Shown: piece by piece, positions 12,400-42,352 of the stretch | How positions within the stretch are numbered: the stretch's first letter is position 1 | Layout of the letters: each line of letters begins with the position of its first letter | From: Candidatus Nomurabacteria bacterium | Lineage (GTDB): Bacteria > Patescibacteriota > Minisyncoccia > Phycocordibacterales > UBA9973 | NCBI GenBank assembly: GCA_016186435.1 | Contig: JACPLQ010000012.1 | Span: forward strand, 1 to 42,371 | Reading direction: 5' to 3' | Length of the DNA: 42,371 bases | Position numbers and translations under genes: made by a program | Notes under the pieces: generated by a model | What the model saw: only the letters and a program-made list of their open reading frames with translations | Told to the model about the DNA's origin: nothing | The model's database searches: none

Positions 12400-12707
12400 T
12401 TGCGGGGCCACGAATCGAACGTGGGTCTTAAGGTTATGCTTACCACTTCAGTTTTCACTGCTTCAAATTGAATTTGTGGTCTGGACTATACCATCTCCTT
12501 TCTTAAGAATAATTCTCAAAATTAAGGAGCTCGTCATCTAGTCTCTACACATTTATTTCCAACTATGTTGGAAAATTTAGCTCGGAATTGTCTTTCTGCT
12601 AAAAGCAGAGAGGATTTCTCCGAATTTGACGAGTGCGCACCAATAGGTTTCCCTAAAGGGGGCCCATATTGTTTGAGCCTTACGAGATGCCTCTTCTCTA
12701 CCCCGCT
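12400..12707 (-). tRNA. Initiator tRNA-fMet(CAU), split by a group I intron
   Basis: On the - strand the 5' half (12707-12676) reads acceptor AGCGGGG, D-arm GAGA-AGAGGCA-TCTC and anticodon stem TAAGG ending in CU. The 3' half (12438-12400) gives CATAACCTTA, T-arm CCACG-TTCGATT-CGTGG and acceptor CCCCGCA plus discriminator A. Joined, the anticodon loop is CUCAUAA with CAU at 34-36. Position 1 (A) and 72 (A) do not pair, the hallmark of a bacterial initiator tRNA. The 237-nt intron follows U33. CCA is not encoded. An elongator-type CAU tRNA lies at 13037. Confidence 0.88.
12439..12675 (-). ncRNA. Group I intron in the initiator tRNA gene
   Basis: The intron lies between U33 and C34 and ends with the conserved G (12439). 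A P1 pairing is possible between exon GGCU and intron GGCC (in the TATGGGCCCCC segment), with U-G at the splice site. R-like GTAGAGACTAGATG and S-like GATGGTATAGTCCAG elements are present, giving the P7 pairing GACT/AGTC. It is small and carries no ORF. Group I introns in initiator tRNA are known from cyanobacteria; here the insertion point is 5' of the anticodon. Confidence 0.85.
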
Positions 12708-13234: not shown

Positions 13235-13372
13235 TGTACCATGCGGTACATGGCCGTGGCCATGAATCCTTAAATGGTACATGGCCGTGGCCATGAATCC
13301 TTAAATGGTACATGGCCGTGGCCATGAATCCTTAAATGGTACATGGCTGCCATGAACCGTCTGGTTCATGTG
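13235..13372. repeat. Tandem 31-bp repeat array made of hairpins, at the 3' end of tRNA-Asp
   Basis: A 31-bp unit starting ATGGTACATGGCCGTGGCC and ending AATCCTTAA is repeated about three times (about 13243-13335) with a partial fourth. Each unit contains the palindrome CATGGCC-GT-GGCCATG. The ends carry different hairpins, ATGTACC/GGTACAT at the left (about 13234-13251) and CATGAACC/GGTTCATG at the right (about 13350-13370). There are no unique spacers, so this is not CRISPR. Confidence 0.85.
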
Positions 13373-13395
13373 CGCCAGAATCCGCATTTAGAGTT

Positions 13396-13647
13396 ATGTT
13401 CTACGTATATATTTTAAAATCACTAAAGGATGAGAAATTATACATAGGCTATTCTAGTGATTTAAGAAAAAGATTTAAAGCTCATCAAGGTGGCGAAGTA
13501 AAGTCTACAAAACCAAGACGACCTTTTGAGTTGATTTTTTACGAAGCATATAAATCCATGAAAGATGCGAAACGAAGGGAGATGTATTTTAAAACAACGA
13601 AAGGCAAAACTTCTTTAAAAACAATGCTCGAGTTTTCGATTATATAG
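13396..13647 (+). CDS. GIY-YIG nuclease domain protein, small stand-alone type
   Basis: The 83-residue protein is a single GIY-YIG domain: FYVYILKS (the GIY-like strand, residues 2-9), KLYIGYSSDLRKRFKAHQ (the YIG strand and catalytic Arg/His region, about 14-31), and the later RRPFELIFYEAYKSMKDAKRRE segment (about 40-61) with the conserved Glu. Small proteins of this type (YhbQ/UPF0213-like) are common in CPR genomes and are thought to act on DNA. The start ATG at 13396 is inside the sequence following the hairpin array; an earlier start would read through the repeats. A broken homologue is at 22789. Confidence 0.85.
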   Translation: MFYVYILKSLKDEKLYIGYSSDLRKRFKAHQGGEVKSTKPRRPFELIFYEAYKSMKDAKRREMYFKTTKGKTSLKTMLEFSII

Positions 13648-22374: not shown

Positions 22375-22440
22375 TAGGCGAGTGCTACGGTCACCTTGGG
22401 ACGACCTGCTTCGCACTAGCTAGGACAGTCCTTGCTAGTG
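22375..22440. repeat. Palindromic repeat between prfB and mazE (GGACAGTCC family)
   Basis: CACTAGCTAGGAC-A-GTCCTTGCTAGTG (22410-22438, read as two arms of 13) forms a strong hairpin with one mismatch pair. The core AGGACAGTCCTAGCTAG recurs at 31148-31164. It probably terminates prfB transcription; the prfB stop codon is at its edge. Confidence 0.75.
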
Positions 22441-22443
22441 TGC

Positions 22444-22471
22444 TTGACAATGTATATACATTGTATATACT
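22444..22471 (+). promoter_or_regulatory. mazE promoter with overlapping operator, leaderless
   Basis: A perfect -35 TTGACA (22444-22449) and -10 TATACT (22466-22471) are 16 nt apart. The spacer holds the palindrome TGTATATACA followed by a repeat GTATATAC, a likely site for autorepression by the AbrB-type antitoxin. The expected start of transcription is at the ATG at 22475 or 22478, so the mRNA is leaderless. Confidence 0.75.
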
Positions 22472-22474
22472 TAA

Positions 22475-22720
22475 ATGATGACTACAAAAATTCAAAAGTG
22501 GGGAAATAGCTTAGCGGTACGGATACCGAAAGTATTTACCCAAAATCTTAATTGGAAAGAGGGGACTAGTATTCATTTTGAACAAATTGGGAATGCTCTT
22601 GTTATTAGCTCTAGTCATTCCAAGTACACTTTAGAAAAACTAATAAAAGGCATTACAAAAAGAAATAGGCATAAATCATTGTGGCCTAATGATAAACCTA
22701 GAGGCAAAGAAATATGGTAA
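22475..22720 (+). CDS. mazE: MazE-like antitoxin (SpoVT/AbrB swapped-hairpin domain), orphan
   Basis: The 81-residue protein begins MTTKIQKWGNSLAVRIPKVF, the unmistakable MazE/AbrB DNA-binding N-terminus, followed by a loop and LEKLIKGITKRNRHKSLWPN, where antitoxins bind their toxin. Antitoxins of this type repress their own promoter and neutralise an mRNA-cutting MazF. The stop overlaps the ATG of a mazF remnant (ATGGTAA), but that frame is dead after eight codons. Because of the leaderless promoter, the second ATG (22478) is the more likely true start. Confidence 0.9.
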   Translation: MMTTKIQKWGNSLAVRIPKVFTQNLNWKEGTSIHFEQIGNALVISSSHSKYTLEKLIKGITKRNRHKSLWPNDKPRGKEIW

Positions 22721-22740
22721 AAAGCAGTAGTTTTGTTTGA
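22714..22740 (+). pseudogene. mazF remnant, 8 codons
   Basis: ATG overlapping the mazE stop opens MVKSSSFV and then TGA. This resembles the normal N-terminus of MazF (MVKKS-x-x-V) and has the usual 4-nt overlap, but nothing toxin-like follows. The toxin appears to have been deleted and replaced by the GIY-YIG fragment. Confidence 0.5.
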
Positions 22741-22788
22741 ATGAAAAATTATGTTAAAATAGGAAGGTGCTCCCGAACAGAACTTATC

Positions 22789-22944
22789 ATGTTTTATACT
22801 TACGTATTAAAAAGTAAGAAAAGCGGTAAGTTTTACACGGGTTACACAACGGCTGAAGTGCTTCCTGTTCTGTACGGGATAATCCCGTACGAAATCGCGG
22901 ACGCATATAATACACATGACTTTATCAATAAATTTTATGAATAA
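22789..22944 (+). pseudogene. Broken GIY-YIG gene
   Basis: The first 20 residues, MFYTYVLKSKKSGKFYTGYT, are a good GIY-YIG N-terminus, close to the intact protein at 13396. After YTGYT the frame enters a palindromic element (from about 22851) and has no further similarity, ending at 22944. The active-site Arg and Glu are lost, so this is a disrupted gene. Confidence 0.7.
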
Positions 22945-22996
22945 TAATGAAAGTAGATGCGCCACTTCAGTGTCCGCGTTTATTTCGTAACGGGAT
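22851..22996. repeat. Inverted-repeat element that disrupts the GIY-YIG gene and abuts ftsE
   Basis: It has nested pairs: CTGAAGTG (22853-22860) with CACTTCAG (22963-22970), GTACGGGAT (22872-22880) with ATCCCGTAC (22882-22890), and a longer imperfect pair in which ATCCCGTACGAAATCGCGGAC (22882-22902) mirrors the stretch ending CGTAACGGGAT at 22996. A TATAAT box (22906-22911) lies between the arms. The right end overlaps the ftsE start codon. Confidence 0.7.
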
Positions 22997-26382: not shown

Positions 26383-27051
26383 ATGGCTATTTTAGTTGTT
26401 GAAGATGAAAGAAAATTAGTGGATATTTTAAAAAGAGCGCTCAAGGGGGAGCGTTATTCTGTGGACGTCGCTTATGATGGAGAAGAAGGCCTGGAAAAAG
26501 CTATGAAGAATAATTATGCTCTCATAATTCTGGACATAATGCTTCCAAAAAAAGACGGCTTTACGGTCTGCAAGGAATTGAGGCAGCGTCAGATCCATAC
26601 GCCGATAATTATGCTTACCGCGAGGGGAAGCGTAGAAGACAGGGTGGTCGGCCTAGACGTCGGCGCAGATGACTACCTCATAAAGCCTTTTGGATTAAAC
26701 GAATTATTCGCCCGAGTTCGGGCAGTTTTGCGCCGACCGAAAACCACAGAATCCAATGTTACTAAAGTCGCCGATTTAATAATAGACAGAAAGAAACACG
26801 AAGTCACTCGCGCTGGAAAAGTCATTCCGCTTACACCGAAGGAATACAAACTTTTAGACACGCTCATTTCAAATCCCGGAGAAGCCATAAACAGGAGACA
26901 GCTTATTGACCATGCCTGGGGACCGACATTCAAAGAAACAAATAACGAACTCAACGTCCATATAAGGTATCTTCGTTCAAAAATAGACAGCGGAAAAAAT
27001 AAACCCCTCATCCATACTGTCCGCGGAGTGGGTTTTGTTTTGAAAGAATAA
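26383..27051 (+). CDS. OmpR/PhoB-family response regulator
   Basis: The 222-residue DNA-binding regulator has a receiver domain with the phospho-acceptor Asp in LIILDIMLPKKDG (about residue 51), the conserved Thr (MLTARG) and Lys (DYLIKPF), and a winged-helix output domain with TPKEYKLLDTLISNPGEAI (about 148-166) and LRSKIDSGKNKPLIHTVRGV (about 195-214). Its start codon follows a TGG-TATAGT box by 8 nt, so the mRNA looks leaderless. The probable partner kinase at 28654 is separated from it by a GC-rich kinase gene, a ribozyme and a Nudix gene. Confidence 0.92.
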   Translation: MAILVVEDERKLVDILKRALKGERYSVDVAYDGEEGLEKAMKNNYALIILDIMLPKKDGFTVCKELRQRQIHTPIIMLTARGSVEDRVVGLDVGADDYLIKPFGLNELFARVRAVLRRPKTTESNVTKVADLIIDRKKHEVTRAGKVIPLTPKEYKLLDTLISNPGEAINRRQLIDHAWGPTFKETNNELNVHIRYLRSKIDSGKNKPLIHTVRGVGFVLKE

Positions 27052-27227: not shown

Positions 27228-28019
27228 ATGATCAATTCAACACAACTTCCTTTCATCAACCTCTTGGGGGCAAAGGGGGCGGGAAAGGATACGATTCACG
27301 AAGCAATAATTCGGCTCTTCTTGCCTCGTCATTTGCGCCATCTCAGTAAGGAGGAACTAATAGAAAGATATCATCATCACCCGCCTCGGATGAAGCTGGT
27401 AAAGCGCGCAACAGAGCGGAAGAGACGCCGTGGAGAGGAAGGAAACTGGAAGTCTCCAGGAAGCTGGGTGCTTCAATTTTTTGAGTCCGAAGAATTCGAG
27501 CGTCGCCTGACCAATGGTCGCTATGGACCCGATGTAATCTTTGACGATCGGGGAGAGGAGCCGATTTTCTCTAATAAGTCAGGCATATACGGAGACTATG
27601 CGCCTGACATACTACCCCTGTCTCTCAGGTGGGTTTCCGACAACGGGGTTCCAGCCCGGTCGGGGGTCTTGCATCCTCGACATTATCCAGAGCCCGACGA
27701 AGACACGCTGTTTTATCTGGGAATTCTCGCGGACTCGACGCAGTTGGTAACACTATTGATGATGGAATACTTCCCGAACATGAAGAGTTTCTTTTTGAGC
27801 GTCGAGGAGGAGGAGATAAAACAGCGGTTATGCGTCCGCAATAAGGCTCTCGGTCTGACGGTCAAGGATCATTTGGAAATCAACAAGAGGTATCTTGCCT
27901 CTCATCCCGAGGATGGATGCATCGTTGTTTCAAACGATGGTGGCATCACACCCGAGCAATGCGCCATCAAAATCGCGAAAATCGCAGGGCTTCCCCTGCC
28001 GGCCAGGGTCCTCCGTTAA
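27228..28019 (+). CDS. P-loop nucleotide/nucleoside-phosphate kinase-like protein, GC-rich
   Basis: The 263-residue protein starts with FINLLGAKGAGKDT, a Walker A loop near residue 11 of the kind found in nucleoside monophosphate and phage dNMP kinases (GxxGxGKDT). A basic helix follows (KLVKRATERKRRRGEE, about 58-73), and later YFPNMKSFFLSVEEEEIKQRL could hold the lid arginines. The substrate is not known. It differs from its surroundings: high GC content, codon use to match, and a textbook Shine-Dalgarno AAAGGAGGGG before the ATG (27228), whereas neighbours are leaderless. This points to recent acquisition. I could not place it in a named family. Confidence 0.6.
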   Translation: MINSTQLPFINLLGAKGAGKDTIHEAIIRLFLPRHLRHLSKEELIERYHHHPPRMKLVKRATERKRRRGEEGNWKSPGSWVLQFFESEEFERRLTNGRYGPDVIFDDRGEEPIFSNKSGIYGDYAPDILPLSLRWVSDNGVPARSGVLHPRHYPEPDEDTLFYLGILADSTQLVTLLMMEYFPNMKSFFLSVEEEEIKQRLCVRNKALGLTVKDHLEINKRYLASHPEDGCIVVSNDGGITPEQCAIKIAKIAGLPLPARVLR

Positions 28020-28027
28020 TGGACCAG

Positions 28028-28076
28028 TAGTTCGGGGATGTGTGTCCTCGCTGATGAGCTCAAAAGAGCGAAACTA
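28028..28076 (+). ncRNA. Hammerhead ribozyme, type III topology
   Basis: All core elements are in place. CTGATGA (28051-28057) and GAA (28070-28072) flank stem II, GCTC-AAAA-GAGC (28058-28069). Stem I is CGGGGA-TGTGTG-TCCTCG (28033-28050), six pairs including one G-U, directly before CTGATGA. Stem III is TAGT (28028-28031) with ACTA (28073-28076). The cleavage triplet is GUU with H17 at 28032, so self-cleavage is predicted between 28032 and 28033. It starts 9 nt after the stop of the kinase gene and ends 15 nt before the Nudix start, so cutting would separate the two cistrons. Stem III is short (4 pairs). Confidence 0.8.
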
Positions 28077-28091
28077 AAAACAAAACAAATT

Positions 28092-28673
28092 ATGTCAATA
28101 TTGGATTATGAAAGTCAAAGAATGCTTGACGTCGTGGATGAAAACGATCAGGTTATTGATGTTGTATCTCGCATCAAGGTTCATCAGGCGGGCTTATTGC
28201 ATCGTGAAGTTCATGTGTGGATGTTTGAAAATGACGGCAACTTAATTTTTCAAAAAAGAGGCCTAAACCGAGCTCTGGCCGGCCTGCTTGATGCCACGGT
28301 CGGCGGACATATGGACAGCGGTGAAAGTTATGCGGACGCGGTGTTACGAGAAACGCGGGAGGAAACTAATCTCGAAATACCTATTGCGGATCTTGAGCTT
28401 TTAAAAATTATACGGTATTCGGATGTATCAGAAAATCCTTGGGATGTAAAGAATAATTTCTTCAGAGCCATATACATTTACAAAAAAACTATGGATTGCG
28501 ATAAAATTCGCAAGGAGCCGAGCGTGCCCGGCATGGGTTTTCAAAAAATCTCACTCGAATCCCTGGATAATATTGGAGATAATGAAAAGCCCATGTTCAT
28601 CCCTCATGTCTTAAAACTTGAGGTGCCCTTCGTTCTAACATATTTAAAAACTCATGACGTGGTCAATAATTGA
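28092..28673 (+). CDS. Nudix hydrolase
   Basis: The 193-residue protein has the Nudix box GHMDSGESYADAVLRETREE with TNLEI after it (about residues 70-94), matching G-x5-E-x7-R-E-x2-E-E. The N-terminus DVVDENDQVIDVVSR and LHREVHVWMF resembles the YfcD/isopentenyl-diphosphate isomerase-like branch of the superfamily, whose members hydrolyse nucleotide-type diphosphates or act on prenyl diphosphates; the exact substrate is unknown. I chose the ATG at 28092, just downstream of the ribozyme; the longer frame starting at 28038 would translate through the ribozyme. The 3' end overlaps the kinase ORF at 28654 by 20 nt. Confidence 0.88.
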   Translation: MSILDYESQRMLDVVDENDQVIDVVSRIKVHQAGLLHREVHVWMFENDGNLIFQKRGLNRALAGLLDATVGGHMDSGESYADAVLRETREETNLEIPIADLELLKIIRYSDVSENPWDVKNNFFRAIYIYKKTMDCDKIRKEPSVPGMGFQKISLESLDNIGDNEKPMFIPHVLKLEVPFVLTYLKTHDVVNN

Positions 28674-29814
28674 AAAGTTAAAAATGATCAATCAGATCGC
28701 CCTCAAGATTATGGCAGAGGGCGACAACATATCCATAATAAAAATAGCTACAGAAGAAGTAGTAAAATTTTTTGAAGCTGATTTTGGTTTTGGATGGGGA
28801 AAATTCAAAGTAAATGACGAATACAAGATAGTGTATAAAAGCTTGAATATGAACTTCCACCCAAATTTTCCTCTTCAAAAAAATCAGTCATCCATATACA
28901 AGGACATTAAAAGTTATATAACTATACCAATTCATTATTTTGATCATTCATATGGAAGTATTGTGCTGTGTTACAAAAAAAAGCGAGATTTCAGTGAAGA
29001 AATACTTGCCTTGGTTGAAACTGCGGGAAATATAGTGGCTCAGTCTATTACCATAAATTGGCTGCTGGAAAACGAGCAAAAAGCCTTGACTTTAGCAGAA
29101 AAACAAAAAGCCACCGAAATATTGCTTTATCAGGAAAAATTAAAAAATGAATTTATTGCAAATGCCACTCATGAGCTCCGAACTCCGCTCGCTATTATGA
29201 AAGGGAACATAGGTCTGGCTAAGCAGGGCAAAGCTAAAAGCCTGCAATCTATAAATAATATTATAGATGATATAGATGAAGAAACAGATCATCTTTCAGC
29301 TATCATTTCAGACTTAGCTCTCCTGACATCGAACTCAAAACAGCCGGACGGGATTCCAAAAGAAAAAATAAATCTGAAATCCCTTGTCCGAGACGTTATC
29401 GAAAGATGCAAGTCTCTTGCCCATAAGAAAAATATATCAATAATTGCGAAAAATATACCAAATATTAATGTTTTTGGGAATAAATCGTATTTGGAAAAAA
29501 TGCTTCTCAACCTTGTAAAAAATTCAGTTATGTATGGAAATAAAAATGGCCTCACAGAAATAAGTATTAATAAGTCGAAAAAGTTCATTACTATAACCGT
29601 TGCAGATAATGGGGTAGGCATATCAAAAGATGATTTAGCGCATGTGTTTGACAGGTTCTATAGGGGAGACAAATCTCATAGCACGAGCGGCACGGGCCTG
29701 GGGCTAGCTATTGTAAAGTGGATAGCGGAAGCTCACGGAGGAAGCGTAAATGTAAAAAGTGCTCTACATAAAGGCGCTACTTTCAGTGTTTATTTGCCAA
29801 TAAAAGCAAAATAA
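28654..29814 (+). CDS. Sensor histidine kinase with a GAF-like input domain
   Basis: The 386-residue soluble kinase has an N-terminal GAF-like domain (about residues 8-145; no membrane helix is seen), a short coiled coil, a HisKA domain with the phospho-acceptor His in NATHELRTPLAIMKG (about 169-183), and a HATPase domain with N-box LVKNSVMYGNKNG (about 287), G1 DNGVGI (about 319) and G2 GTGLGLAI (about 347). It probably phosphorylates the regulator at 26383. The start overlaps the Nudix gene by 20 nt; an internal ATG at 28684 is an alternative. A cytoplasmic signal is implied. Confidence 0.9.
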   Translation: MTWSIIEKLKMINQIALKIMAEGDNISIIKIATEEVVKFFEADFGFGWGKFKVNDEYKIVYKSLNMNFHPNFPLQKNQSSIYKDIKSYITIPIHYFDHSYGSIVLCYKKKRDFSEEILALVETAGNIVAQSITINWLLENEQKALTLAEKQKATEILLYQEKLKNEFIANATHELRTPLAIMKGNIGLAKQGKAKSLQSINNIIDDIDEETDHLSAIISDLALLTSNSKQPDGIPKEKINLKSLVRDVIERCKSLAHKKNISIIAKNIPNINVFGNKSYLEKMLLNLVKNSVMYGNKNGLTEISINKSKKFITITVADNGVGISKDDLAHVFDRFYRGDKSHSTSGTGLGLAIVKWIAEAHGGSVNVKSALHKGATFSVYLPIKAK

Positions 29815-40127: not shown

Positions 40128-42029
40128 TTAGGCAGCTCTTTTTAGTGTTATACCATTTAGTGTATTAATAATTTTAGATTTGCCACCAGTTGGTTTTGTG
40201 TTAGCGCTGTCAGCTTCTATCGCAGAATAAGGGATTGGTCTTATCTGTATTGATTCATTTAGATTCGGCTTGTTTCTTGTCTGTGGTATTCCCAAAATAC
40301 GCAAAAGCATCCCATGACCATCTATCGCAAGATTTTTCTCCATTTTTTCTGCTATTGGGAGAGTTTTTTCAGCAGCGACTGATTGTGTATCCATAAATTT
40401 CTCGCTTCGCGCTTCGTCATTTCTCTCTAGCATATTCTTTAATTTAGTTTTTGTTGCTTCTCGTTCTATTTCTTTTGGTTCTTTTGGAAGGTTTTGTATT
40501 ACTTCTGCTGTTTCTATTTTTATATTTTCTATGACCTTCGGAATCTCATTCTTAATTTCGATTTCTCTTGACGCTACGGGTGCTTCTATCGGAGTTTCAA
40601 TAGCTGCTTCTTTTATTTCTTTATCTATTGCAGTTGCAACTGTTTCCTCTGCTATTTCTTGATTTTCGCTTGTAGCTGAAACTAATTCTGTTGTGTGATC
40701 GTTCACAATTTCTTCTGTATTTTCAGGCTCAATGACTTGTATCTTTTCCTGCATTTCAATTCCGGGCGCTACTTCTTTTTCTGCAGGTTTTATTTCAGCT
40801 TTAAGTGTAGTCCTTATTTCGACATATGGGGAAACGACTCCTGTAACAACGGTCTTAATAGGCTCTTCTGTTTTCGTTTCAGGCTTTCGCATAATTATGG
40901 TCTCGGGTTTTGTCGCTTCGTTTTTTGGGTTATCTGTAGTTTTAATTTCTGGCGCGGAAACTTTAATATTTTCCGCAGCTTTATTATCTACCAGTGCTGG
41001 TTGTTCCTCCGCTACTGCGTGAATTTGTTCTACTGTTTCAGCCGCAGCGGGGATTTGCATTTCAGGTACTTCAATTTCTTTTCTGACTTCTTCTACTTCT
41101 TCTTTAATATCTGGTTTTTCGCTTACTGCCGGTTCGTCTTTTAGCAAGTCTAGAATTTTCTCGGTAACTTGCCTATCTATTTCTTGCTCTTGGATTTTCT
41201 CTGCAACTATTTCTGCAGCTGGTTGTTCAACGGTCTGTATGGGATCTTGTACACCTGACTTTTCGCTAGACATTACATCAGATACTTCATTAGGTTCAGC
41301 GTGTTCTGTATCTAGCGTAACCACAGGATCTACTTCCACTATGTGATCAACTTCAGGAGCACCTAAGCTAACTTCTCCCTGAACTGCCGCCTCGACCCGT
41401 TCAACAGTCTTTTCGGTGACTGTTTGTGCTTCTACAGACAAAGGTATGTCCACTAATATTTCTTTATCTCTGATTTCCTCCTTTTCTTTATCTAAGTTTA
41501 TTTCTAGATTCAAATCTTCTTCCGCAGTTTTCGTTCCTTCTATACTATCAATTGGTTTTTCTTCTGATTCTTCTTTATCTGTCACTGATCGAATTTCGTA
41601 CTCGATGATTCCTTCCGTATTCATTTTTACAGCAGTAAAATAAGTGGTTTTTCCGTCCCTATGGTCCGGCAACATGTGCGACTGTCCTGGATTAGTAGTC
41701 AGAGTTGCCAACAGGTCCGCTTGCGCTAACTTTTGATCTTCAGTAAGTTCGGAAAGTACCACCATTCCTTGATATTCAAGTTTCGAATTTTCTTCGCTGC
41801 AACCACTGTTGGCTACAAGAAATTGGGTTAAGGTTTCTTCCTCGCTGTCTTTATCTTCAATATCTTTTTCAATGGGTTCTTCATCTATACCGGGTTCCTT
41901 TTTGTCATTGTTTTCGTGTTCTGGGATTTGATCGTATAATTCCAAACCACCCTCAAAGTTTGATTCTCTGCTTTCTTCTATAGTTTCTTCACTTAATGGT
42001 TCTCCACTTGTAGAAAATTCATCACTCAT
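40128..42029 (-). CDS. Large acidic, low-complexity, probably disordered protein
   Basis: The 633-residue protein is very rich in Glu, Ile, Val, Pro and Thr, with long runs of EIKNEIPKVIE- and PETIIMRKPETKTEEPIK-like character and few hydrophobic core positions. A short N-terminal folded patch may exist around residues 80-150 (LSELTEDQKLAQADLLATLT and YFTAVKMNTEGIIEYEIRSV). The C-terminus is basic (IINTLNGITLKRAA). There is no signal peptide. It is the first gene of the riboswitch operon, 5 nt before the ClpB-like gene, so it could be a scaffold or a client of the ATPase. No family is recognised. Confidence 0.7.
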   Translation of the reverse strand: MSDEFSTSGEPLSEETIEESRESNFEGGLELYDQIPEHENNDKKEPGIDEEPIEKDIEDKDSEEETLTQFLVANSGCSEENSKLEYQGMVVLSELTEDQKLAQADLLATLTTNPGQSHMLPDHRDGKTTYFTAVKMNTEGIIEYEIRSVTDKEESEEKPIDSIEGTKTAEEDLNLEINLDKEKEEIRDKEILVDIPLSVEAQTVTEKTVERVEAAVQGEVSLGAPEVDHIVEVDPVVTLDTEHAEPNEVSDVMSSEKSGVQDPIQTVEQPAAEIVAEKIQEQEIDRQVTEKILDLLKDEPAVSEKPDIKEEVEEVRKEIEVPEMQIPAAAETVEQIHAVAEEQPALVDNKAAENIKVSAPEIKTTDNPKNEATKPETIIMRKPETKTEEPIKTVVTGVVSPYVEIRTTLKAEIKPAEKEVAPGIEMQEKIQVIEPENTEEIVNDHTTELVSATSENQEIAEETVATAIDKEIKEAAIETPIEAPVASREIEIKNEIPKVIENIKIETAEVIQNLPKEPKEIEREATKTKLKNMLERNDEARSEKFMDTQSVAAEKTLPIAEKMEKNLAIDGHGMLLRILGIPQTRNKPNLNESIQIRPIPYSAIEADSANTKPTGGKSKIINTLNGITLKRAA

Positions 42030-42051
42030 AAAATAATTCGCAATTAAAAAC

Positions 42052-42077
42052 AAAAAATCCTGCCTTAGAGCAGAATT
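42052..42077 (-). terminator. Intrinsic terminator between riboswitch and operon
   Basis: On the - strand AATTCTGC (42077-42070) pairs with GCAGGATT (42063-42056), followed by TTTTTT. It ends 22 nt before the start of the acidic protein's gene (42029). With the aptamer upstream this is the layout of a transcription-attenuating riboswitch. Confidence 0.8.
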
Positions 42078-42170
42078 TGTGGGCCTTCAATCCGTCTTCG
42101 CGTAAAGCTACGACGAGACGATGAAACATGAAGGATATCCTGCTCGGGACACTTAAAACATTTTGAAAAA

Positions 42171-42318
42171 TGATCGGTATTCGGACTTGTTCCCTCTCGC
42201 CAAATGGCGTATCAGGACTTACCGTAGCGGCACTGTACCGGAATCCCCGCCTTGACTCGTCAACGCGAGGCAGGTCACCGGTTTCCCCAATTCACTTCTT
42301 TAATTTTTCAAAGGGAAC
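42171..42318 (-). promoter_or_regulatory. Cobalamin (B12) riboswitch aptamer
   Basis: On the - strand the aptamer reads GTTCCC (42318-42313), AATTGGGGAAACCGGTG, then after an insert ATTCCGGTACAGTGCCGC and TACGGTAA, a CGCCATTTGGCG hairpin, and AAGTCCGAATACCGATCA at the 3' end. These match the conserved cobalamin elements GGGAA-GCCGGTG, AATCCGG, the CAGTGCCGCTAC-type B12 box, and the 3' AGCCAGGAGACC-type arm. The 5' GTTCCC can pair with GGGAAC near the 3' end. About 30 nt of a palindromic repeat (42245-42274) are inserted between GGTGA and ATTCC. A promoter precedes it (42325-42352) and a terminator follows (42052-42077). Confidence 0.82.
42245..42274 (-). repeat. Palindromic repeat inserted inside the riboswitch aptamer
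   Basis: On the - strand CCTGCCTCGCGTTGACGAGT is followed by CAAGGCGGGG. It is the same element as at 33906-33931 in the small MGKGNN gene with 4 extra bases in the middle. In the standard aptamer only a few bases connect GGTG to AATCC, so this loop has been expanded into a hairpin. Confidence 0.8.
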
Positions 42319-42324
42319 ATTTTT

Positions 42325-42352
42325 AGTGTATACTGGTTTTATCTGATGTCAA
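42325..42352 (-). promoter_or_regulatory. Promoter of the riboswitch operon
   Basis: On the - strand TTGACA (42352-42347) and TACACT (42330-42325) are 16 nt apart, with the aptamer starting a few bases later. Nothing else is visible between 42353 and the window end. Confidence 0.6.

Follow-up and report, generated by a model that had tools for sequence, protein, structure and literature searches.

What does a hammerhead ribozyme do between two genes on the chromosome of an ultra-small (CPR) bacterium, and which of its neighbors does it serve? Type III hammerheads are already known from bacteria and phages, as is their intergenic placement (PMC3088659, PMC6155905), and a review describes their function in bacteria as unsettled (PMC6155905). 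We take up the question for a contig of Candidatus Nomurabacteria (GenBank assembly GCA_016186435.1, contig JACPLQ010000012.1), of which positions 1 to 42,371, hereafter the window, were analyzed. An initial annotation, made from the letters alone, had placed a hammerhead between a GC-rich kinase gene and a Nudix gene. In a search of freely accessible, published papers, we met with no account of hammerheads from CPR or Patescibacteria, nor any description of a CPR-wide sub-family, of a kinase-hammerhead-Nudix locus, or of a GC step at such ribozymes.

Structure of the ribozyme

The gene order in this part of the window is ftsE, ftsX, pyrG, a response regulator, a guanylate-kinase-like gene, the hammerhead, a Nudix gene and a histidine kinase (Table 1). 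The ribozyme separates two cistrons as annotated, lying between the stop codon of the kinase gene (28017–28019) and the ATG of the Nudix gene, which follows 15 nt after its end. The claim of a full three-way junction with stems of 6, 4 and 4 pairs, a GUU triplet and type III topology proved correct to the base. Following the definition of type III membership in PMC3088659, the element has C3 U4 G5 A6 N7 G8 A9, G12 A13 A14, the A15.1-U16.1 pair (A28073-U28031) and H17 (U28032, i.e., U17 of the GUU cleavage site), while the pairs adjoining the core at 1.1-2.1, 10.1-11.1 and 15.1-16.1 are C28033-G28050, G28058-C28069 and U28031-A28073. Both the sequence and the RF00008 alignment leave stem III open and close stems I and II by loops, the topology of type III.

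Table 1 Features of the kinase-hammerhead-Nudix locus (window coordinates)
Feature	Position	Strand	Details	Evidence
Response regulator	26383..27051	+	before the kinase gene	
Divergent P-loop guanylate-kinase-like protein	27228..28019	+	GC ~0.51; longer ORF from 27165	
Type III hammerhead ribozyme	28028..28076	+	predicted cleavage between 28032 and 28033	sequence, RF00008, model R1, shuffles
Stem III, 5' strand UAGU	28028–28031	+	4 bp; pairs with ACUA at 28073–28076	
Stem I hairpin CGGGGA-UGUGUG-UCCUCG	28033..28050	+	strands 28033–28038 and 28045–28050, 6 bp including one G-U; loop UGUGUG 28039–28044	sequence and covariation
Catalytic core CUGAUGA / GAA around stem II GCUC-AAAA-GAGC	28051..28072	+	CUGAUGA 28051–28057; stem II strands 28058–28061 (GCUC) and 28066–28069 (GAGC), 4 bp; loop AAAA 28062–28065; GAA 28070–28072	
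Nudix hydrolase family protein	28092..28673	+	47% identical to the Nudix protein of locus L037	PF00293, E 7e-14
GAF-type sensor histidine kinase	28654..29814	+	overlaps the Nudix gene; 43% identical to the L037 protein	HisKA and HATPase_c

A search with Rfam models, which had been proposed as a check, was only partly favorable: RF00008 (Hammerhead_3) aligns end to end with positions 28025–28079, covering the core and all three helices (34.1 bits, E 7.5e-6), but stays under its gathering score of 48.5, so that a default Rfam scan does not return this hammerhead. The window element is thus a hammerhead by structure, and not an RF00008 match at the curated threshold. Our own covariance model (R1), built from the family described below, scores it at 67.6 bits (E 2.4e-18). 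A descriptor of the complete type III hammerhead (the core, at least 4 pairs in stem I, at least 3 in stem II and at least 4 in stem III) finds exactly one site in the window, this ribozyme, and none in any of 600 dinucleotide shuffles. In the minimum-energy fold of an isolated 57-mer, stems I and II form and the outer helix differs from stem III, and the length of the latter, only 4 bp, would count against activity. Judged by its sequence, the element is a genuine type III hammerhead and probably an active one.

From an ATG at 28038, the frame of the Nudix ORF runs through the ribozyme without a stop codon, and on this account the motif might be a chance resemblance within a longer N-terminal coding region. 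We hold this to be extremely improbable. Such an N-terminal extension was considered and rejected, as the Nudix genes of relatives start at the position equivalent to 28092, which makes the ribozyme intergenic; none of the shuffles produced the motif, and a chance origin is excluded by the conservation and covariation seen in relatives.

Orthologous loci in related species

Five species of the genus carry the kinase-ribozyme locus, and the ribozyme stems covary among them. The upstream kinase has no match of its own in Pfam or PHROG searches, and it is homologous to guanylate-kinase-like proteins encoded at the corresponding position of four related species, with which it has P-loop and guanylate-kinase motifs in common at 28–31% identity. 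Three of these (G453, which carries locus L037, G447 and G478) keep the order kinase, hammerhead, Nudix and histidine kinase, and the fourth, G009, carries the Nudix gene in inverted orientation with the order of kinase and hammerhead unchanged, so that the same ribozyme does stand beside kinase homologues in related genomes, where the initial annotation had proposed to look for it. Stem I is CGGGGA/UCCUCG in the window, UCAGGA/UCCUGA in G453 and G447, CCAGGA/UCCUGG in G478 and UCAGAA/UUCUGA in G009. Homologous loci retaining the genes without the core bases and covarying stems had been named as grounds for rejecting the ribozyme; what we found is a conserved core and compensatory stem changes, with the single exception of G478, in which G12 is replaced by A and loop II carries a 32-nt insertion. 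These two changes make the G478 copy probably inactive, and the mutated core indicates that ribozyme activity is not indispensable in that species.

The G478 ortholog, together with the short stem III of the window, would be compatible with a phage- or cassette-derived relic that has lost its activity or is no longer under selection. As the window, G453, G447 and G009 all retain every core base and differ by compensatory changes in their stems, we regard such a relic as improbable. In four other relatives (G476, G060, G195 and G475; loci L213, L214, L216 and L217), the response regulator and the histidine kinase are immediate neighbors, and the N-terminus of the histidine kinase differs.

A sub-family shared by CPR and phages

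Searching the window's own genome with CUGAUGA...CGAAA revealed a second hammerhead on contig 10, with the same loops and different yet complementary stems (RF00008, 33.7 bits). A GC-rich stretch lies immediately upstream of it, an intrinsic terminator follows it, and its orientation is convergent with that of a DNA polymerase III alpha-like gene. The GC-rich ~300 nt preceding it (L003 1550–1860, contig 10) contain no convincing ORF and have no Rfam match; they may represent a non-coding RNA of an unknown kind or the remains of a gene.

Genome and viral collections were scanned with the pattern AUGUGUGU-N(2-8)-CUGAUGA-N(8-24)-CGAAA, which yielded 57 genome and 79 viral stretches, with approximately 100 matches left when stem I pairing alone was demanded. 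In a fixed-length alignment of 47 distinct family members, 94.3% of the cells are paired (62.5% when shuffled), and covariation reaches 0.83 (0.19 when shuffled, ≤ 0.12 when slid), with 251 compensatory cells. By helix, 99.6% of the cells of stem I are paired, with covariation at 5 of its 6 pairs; stem II is paired in 100% of the cells, though it was never filtered for; and the inner three pairs of stem III occur in 47/47 members and the fourth in 45/47. Pairs changed on both sides number 5, 5 and 3 in the three helices. In loop II the AA(A) hardly varies, although the search pattern did not demand it, whereas the sequence of loop I was part of the pattern; the conservation of loop I is thus in part a product of the search and is no test of a contact between loops I and II. 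By these sequence features, we define a sub-family of predicted type III hammerheads of phages and CPR in which the loops are fixed as AUGUGUGU (stem I) and NAAA (stem II).

The stemless chance matches of the same scan served as a comparison set for CPR enrichment: named genome matches with an intact stem I belong to CPR in 24 of 26 cases, those lacking the stem in 0 of 28 (Fisher p 2e-13). Of the Patescibacteria genomes sampled across the phylum, 39 of 379 (~10%) contain the motif according to model R1, as do 11 of 80 genomes of the same genus; the view that such a ribozyme is unusual in CPR does not hold. In one CPR genome, the model gives four weak, tandemly arranged matches within ~2.7 kb (G193 contig 16, 13610–16273).

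According to the pattern scan, the sub-family is also present in many viral contigs and phages, and the PaP3-group Pseudomonas phages and Clew-1 have the same loops as the CPR ribozymes. The PaP3 hammerhead is among the natural variants reported active in vitro (PMC3088659), and the activity of this relative would be the nearest support, by analogy, for catalysis by the window ribozyme. Two further arrangements were observed in viral contigs: in L109 (2690–3110), two hammerheads ~408 nt apart flank one ORF of 126 aa, and in a phage subgroup (e.g., L081, L082, L085, and L104), an additional nucleotide separates CUGAUGA from a stem II of 5 bp.

GC step and probable role in transcript processing

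The foreign composition noted for the kinase gene was confirmed, its ORF having a GC content of 0.51 as compared with 0.41 in the Nudix gene and ~0.34 in the histidine kinase, and the same asymmetry recurs at other loci. We compared 300 nt on each side of the ribozyme at 64 distinct CPR loci, 58 of which had both flanks long enough: GC is 0.503 upstream vs. 0.431 downstream, and higher upstream in 51 of the 58 (p 6e-8). At 66 control 3' ends of genes from these contigs there is no step (0.426 vs. 0.428, p 0.93). The upstream ORF likewise exceeds the downstream ORF in GC in 29 of 35 pairs at CPR ribozyme loci, and viral contigs show a step as well (0.411 upstream vs. 0.368 downstream, 26 of 35). 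Since the step is found at the ribozyme and not at ordinary gene ends, the ribozyme tends to lie at the end of a stretch of foreign composition.

An intrinsic terminator was present within the 150 nt before the ribozyme at only 1 of 62 loci; terminators after it (6 of 62 loci) were not significantly different from those after control gene ends (13 of 73), and promoter-like sites near the window locus were at chance level. Gene orientation at CPR loci (sense vs. antisense 40:11 upstream and 34:11 downstream) does not separate a 3'-end from a 5'-leader role, and orphans are not clearly more common among the upstream ORFs than among the downstream ones (11 of 30 vs. 14 of 30 above Pfam cut-offs).

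In the reading that we prefer, with a probability of roughly 70%, an active type III hammerhead would cut read-through RNA and so give the acquired upstream gene its own 3' end. The kinase and Nudix genes would be co-transcribed, and the RNA would fold and cleave itself at the predicted site, leaving a kinase message that ends 13 nt after the stop codon with a 2',3'-cyclic phosphate and a Nudix-histidine-kinase message that starts with a 5'-hydroxyl and two ribozyme hairpins. The most likely job of such a cut would be to provide a 3' end, or insulation, for an acquired upstream gene where no terminator separates it from its neighbors; cleavage would keep read-through from tying the stability and expression of the kinase gene to those of the genes around it.

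The ribozyme could instead serve the downstream message, with the hairpin-capped 5'-hydroxyl leader changing the stability or translation of the Nudix-histidine-kinase mRNA. The Nudix start just 15 nt past the ribozyme is in keeping with this, as are phages PaP3 and Clew-1, in which a start codon adjoins or overlaps the ribozyme. However, G009 and several other CPR loci have the downstream gene in antisense orientation, so a downstream role is not general, and we consider it unlikely here. The GC step and the inverted Nudix gene of G009 tie the ribozyme to the upstream gene, and the mRNA-processing switch suggested initially loses ground as a device of the Nudix pair; nothing noticed at these loci pointed to ligand control or switching.

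Insertions and possible gene cassettes

The annotation had also suggested a trace of a mobile element. One observation in its favor comes from G032, in which prfB and ftsE lie 736 nt (~0.7 kb) apart and enclose an orphan ORF with a terminal hammerhead, as compared with 9–50 nt between the two genes in most relatives; on the other hand, neither transposition machinery nor a target duplication was noticed, in an unsystematic inspection. In the window, the same junction holds 572 nt (22375–22946) with no hammerhead, and other relatives have other insertions there, so the prfB-ftsE junction looks like an insertion hot spot.

The hammerhead might then be the 3' end of a mobile or acquired gene cassette (a ‘moron’), in which ORF and ribozyme travel together and cleavage aids spread or insulation after insertion. 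Apart from the ~0.7 kb unit in G032, this would agree with GC-rich DNA on the upstream side only, with upstream genes that differ from locus to locus, with the presence of the sub-family in viruses, and with related phage-linked ORFs (phrog_30542) that precede the hammerhead in two CPR genomes (L015, L170). Against it, the window unit looks resident, being kept in five species at 28–31% protein identity, and no recombinase, terminal repeats, target duplication or common left end was noticed, again unsystematically. An upstream non-coding RNA or cassette sequence common to the CPR ribozymes was sought by all-against-all blastn and rejected, as no upstream sequence is shared among loci. Moreover, some relatives carry prfB-ftsE insertions of similar size that have no hammerhead, so the ribozyme is no general requirement for insertion. 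Overall, a traveling cassette is a possible but rather doubtful explanation. We put forward still more tentatively that CPR might carry dispersed acquired gene cassettes ending in a small hammerhead in place of a terminator, self-cleavage being the standard 3' end of gained genes. If the cassette reading were true, new genes could be inserted between host genes without coupling their expression.

Other features of the window

Several further elements were observed elsewhere in the window. The 3' region of the 23S rRNA is split within positions 1–1600 (matches at 1–151 and 1356–1600, ~1.2 kb between them), and a LAGLIDADG_2 homing-endonuclease ORF (201–866) lies inside the split. A group I intron (12462–12685, minus strand, 79.5 bits) has flanks resembling two tRNA halves with a CAT anticodon, which suggests that it probably interrupts an initiator-type tRNA-Met in the anticodon loop; a GIY-YIG ORF is found nearby (13336–13647). 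A cobalamin riboswitch match (42155–42336, minus strand, 38.6 bits) precedes a 641-aa ORF (40128–42053) that has no Pfam match.

Significance and comparison with known systems

A sub-family carried by ~10% of the sampled Patescibacteria, its GC signature and a locus shared by five species together point to a concrete candidate role, 3'-end formation for acquired genes, for ribozymes that in these ultra-small bacteria tend to lie where acquired, GC-rich genes end.

Type III hammerheads are as frequent in bacteria as types I and II (PMC3088659), and the statement that bacterial hammerheads mostly have other topologies had to be dropped. As compared with RF00008, the window element has a shorter stem III and a 4-nt loop II. 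PaP3 and its relatives (Bruynoghevirus) resemble it in topology, in the stem I loop AUGUGUGU, in loop II (UAAA/AAAA), in the 6-bp stem I and in intergenic placement, but PaP3 has a U-U mismatch at 10.1/11.1 where the core of the CPR element is fully canonical, and its hammerhead abuts a phage start codon, whereas the CPR element is part of a chromosomal operon, and none of the neighboring genes examined is a phage gene. The theta (HDV-like) ribozymes of gut phages (PMC10879173) are likewise small self-cleaving RNAs that make a defined RNA 3' end, but they belong to another ribozyme class and act at tRNA 3' ends. Closest in arrangement are the bacterial and prophage hammerheads that flank single genes, also between the genes of a polycistronic transcript, which they have been proposed to cut into shorter mRNAs (PMC3088659, PMC6155905); what sets the present case apart from them is its occurrence on CPR chromosomes, the change in composition at the ribozyme, and the retention of one locus in five species.
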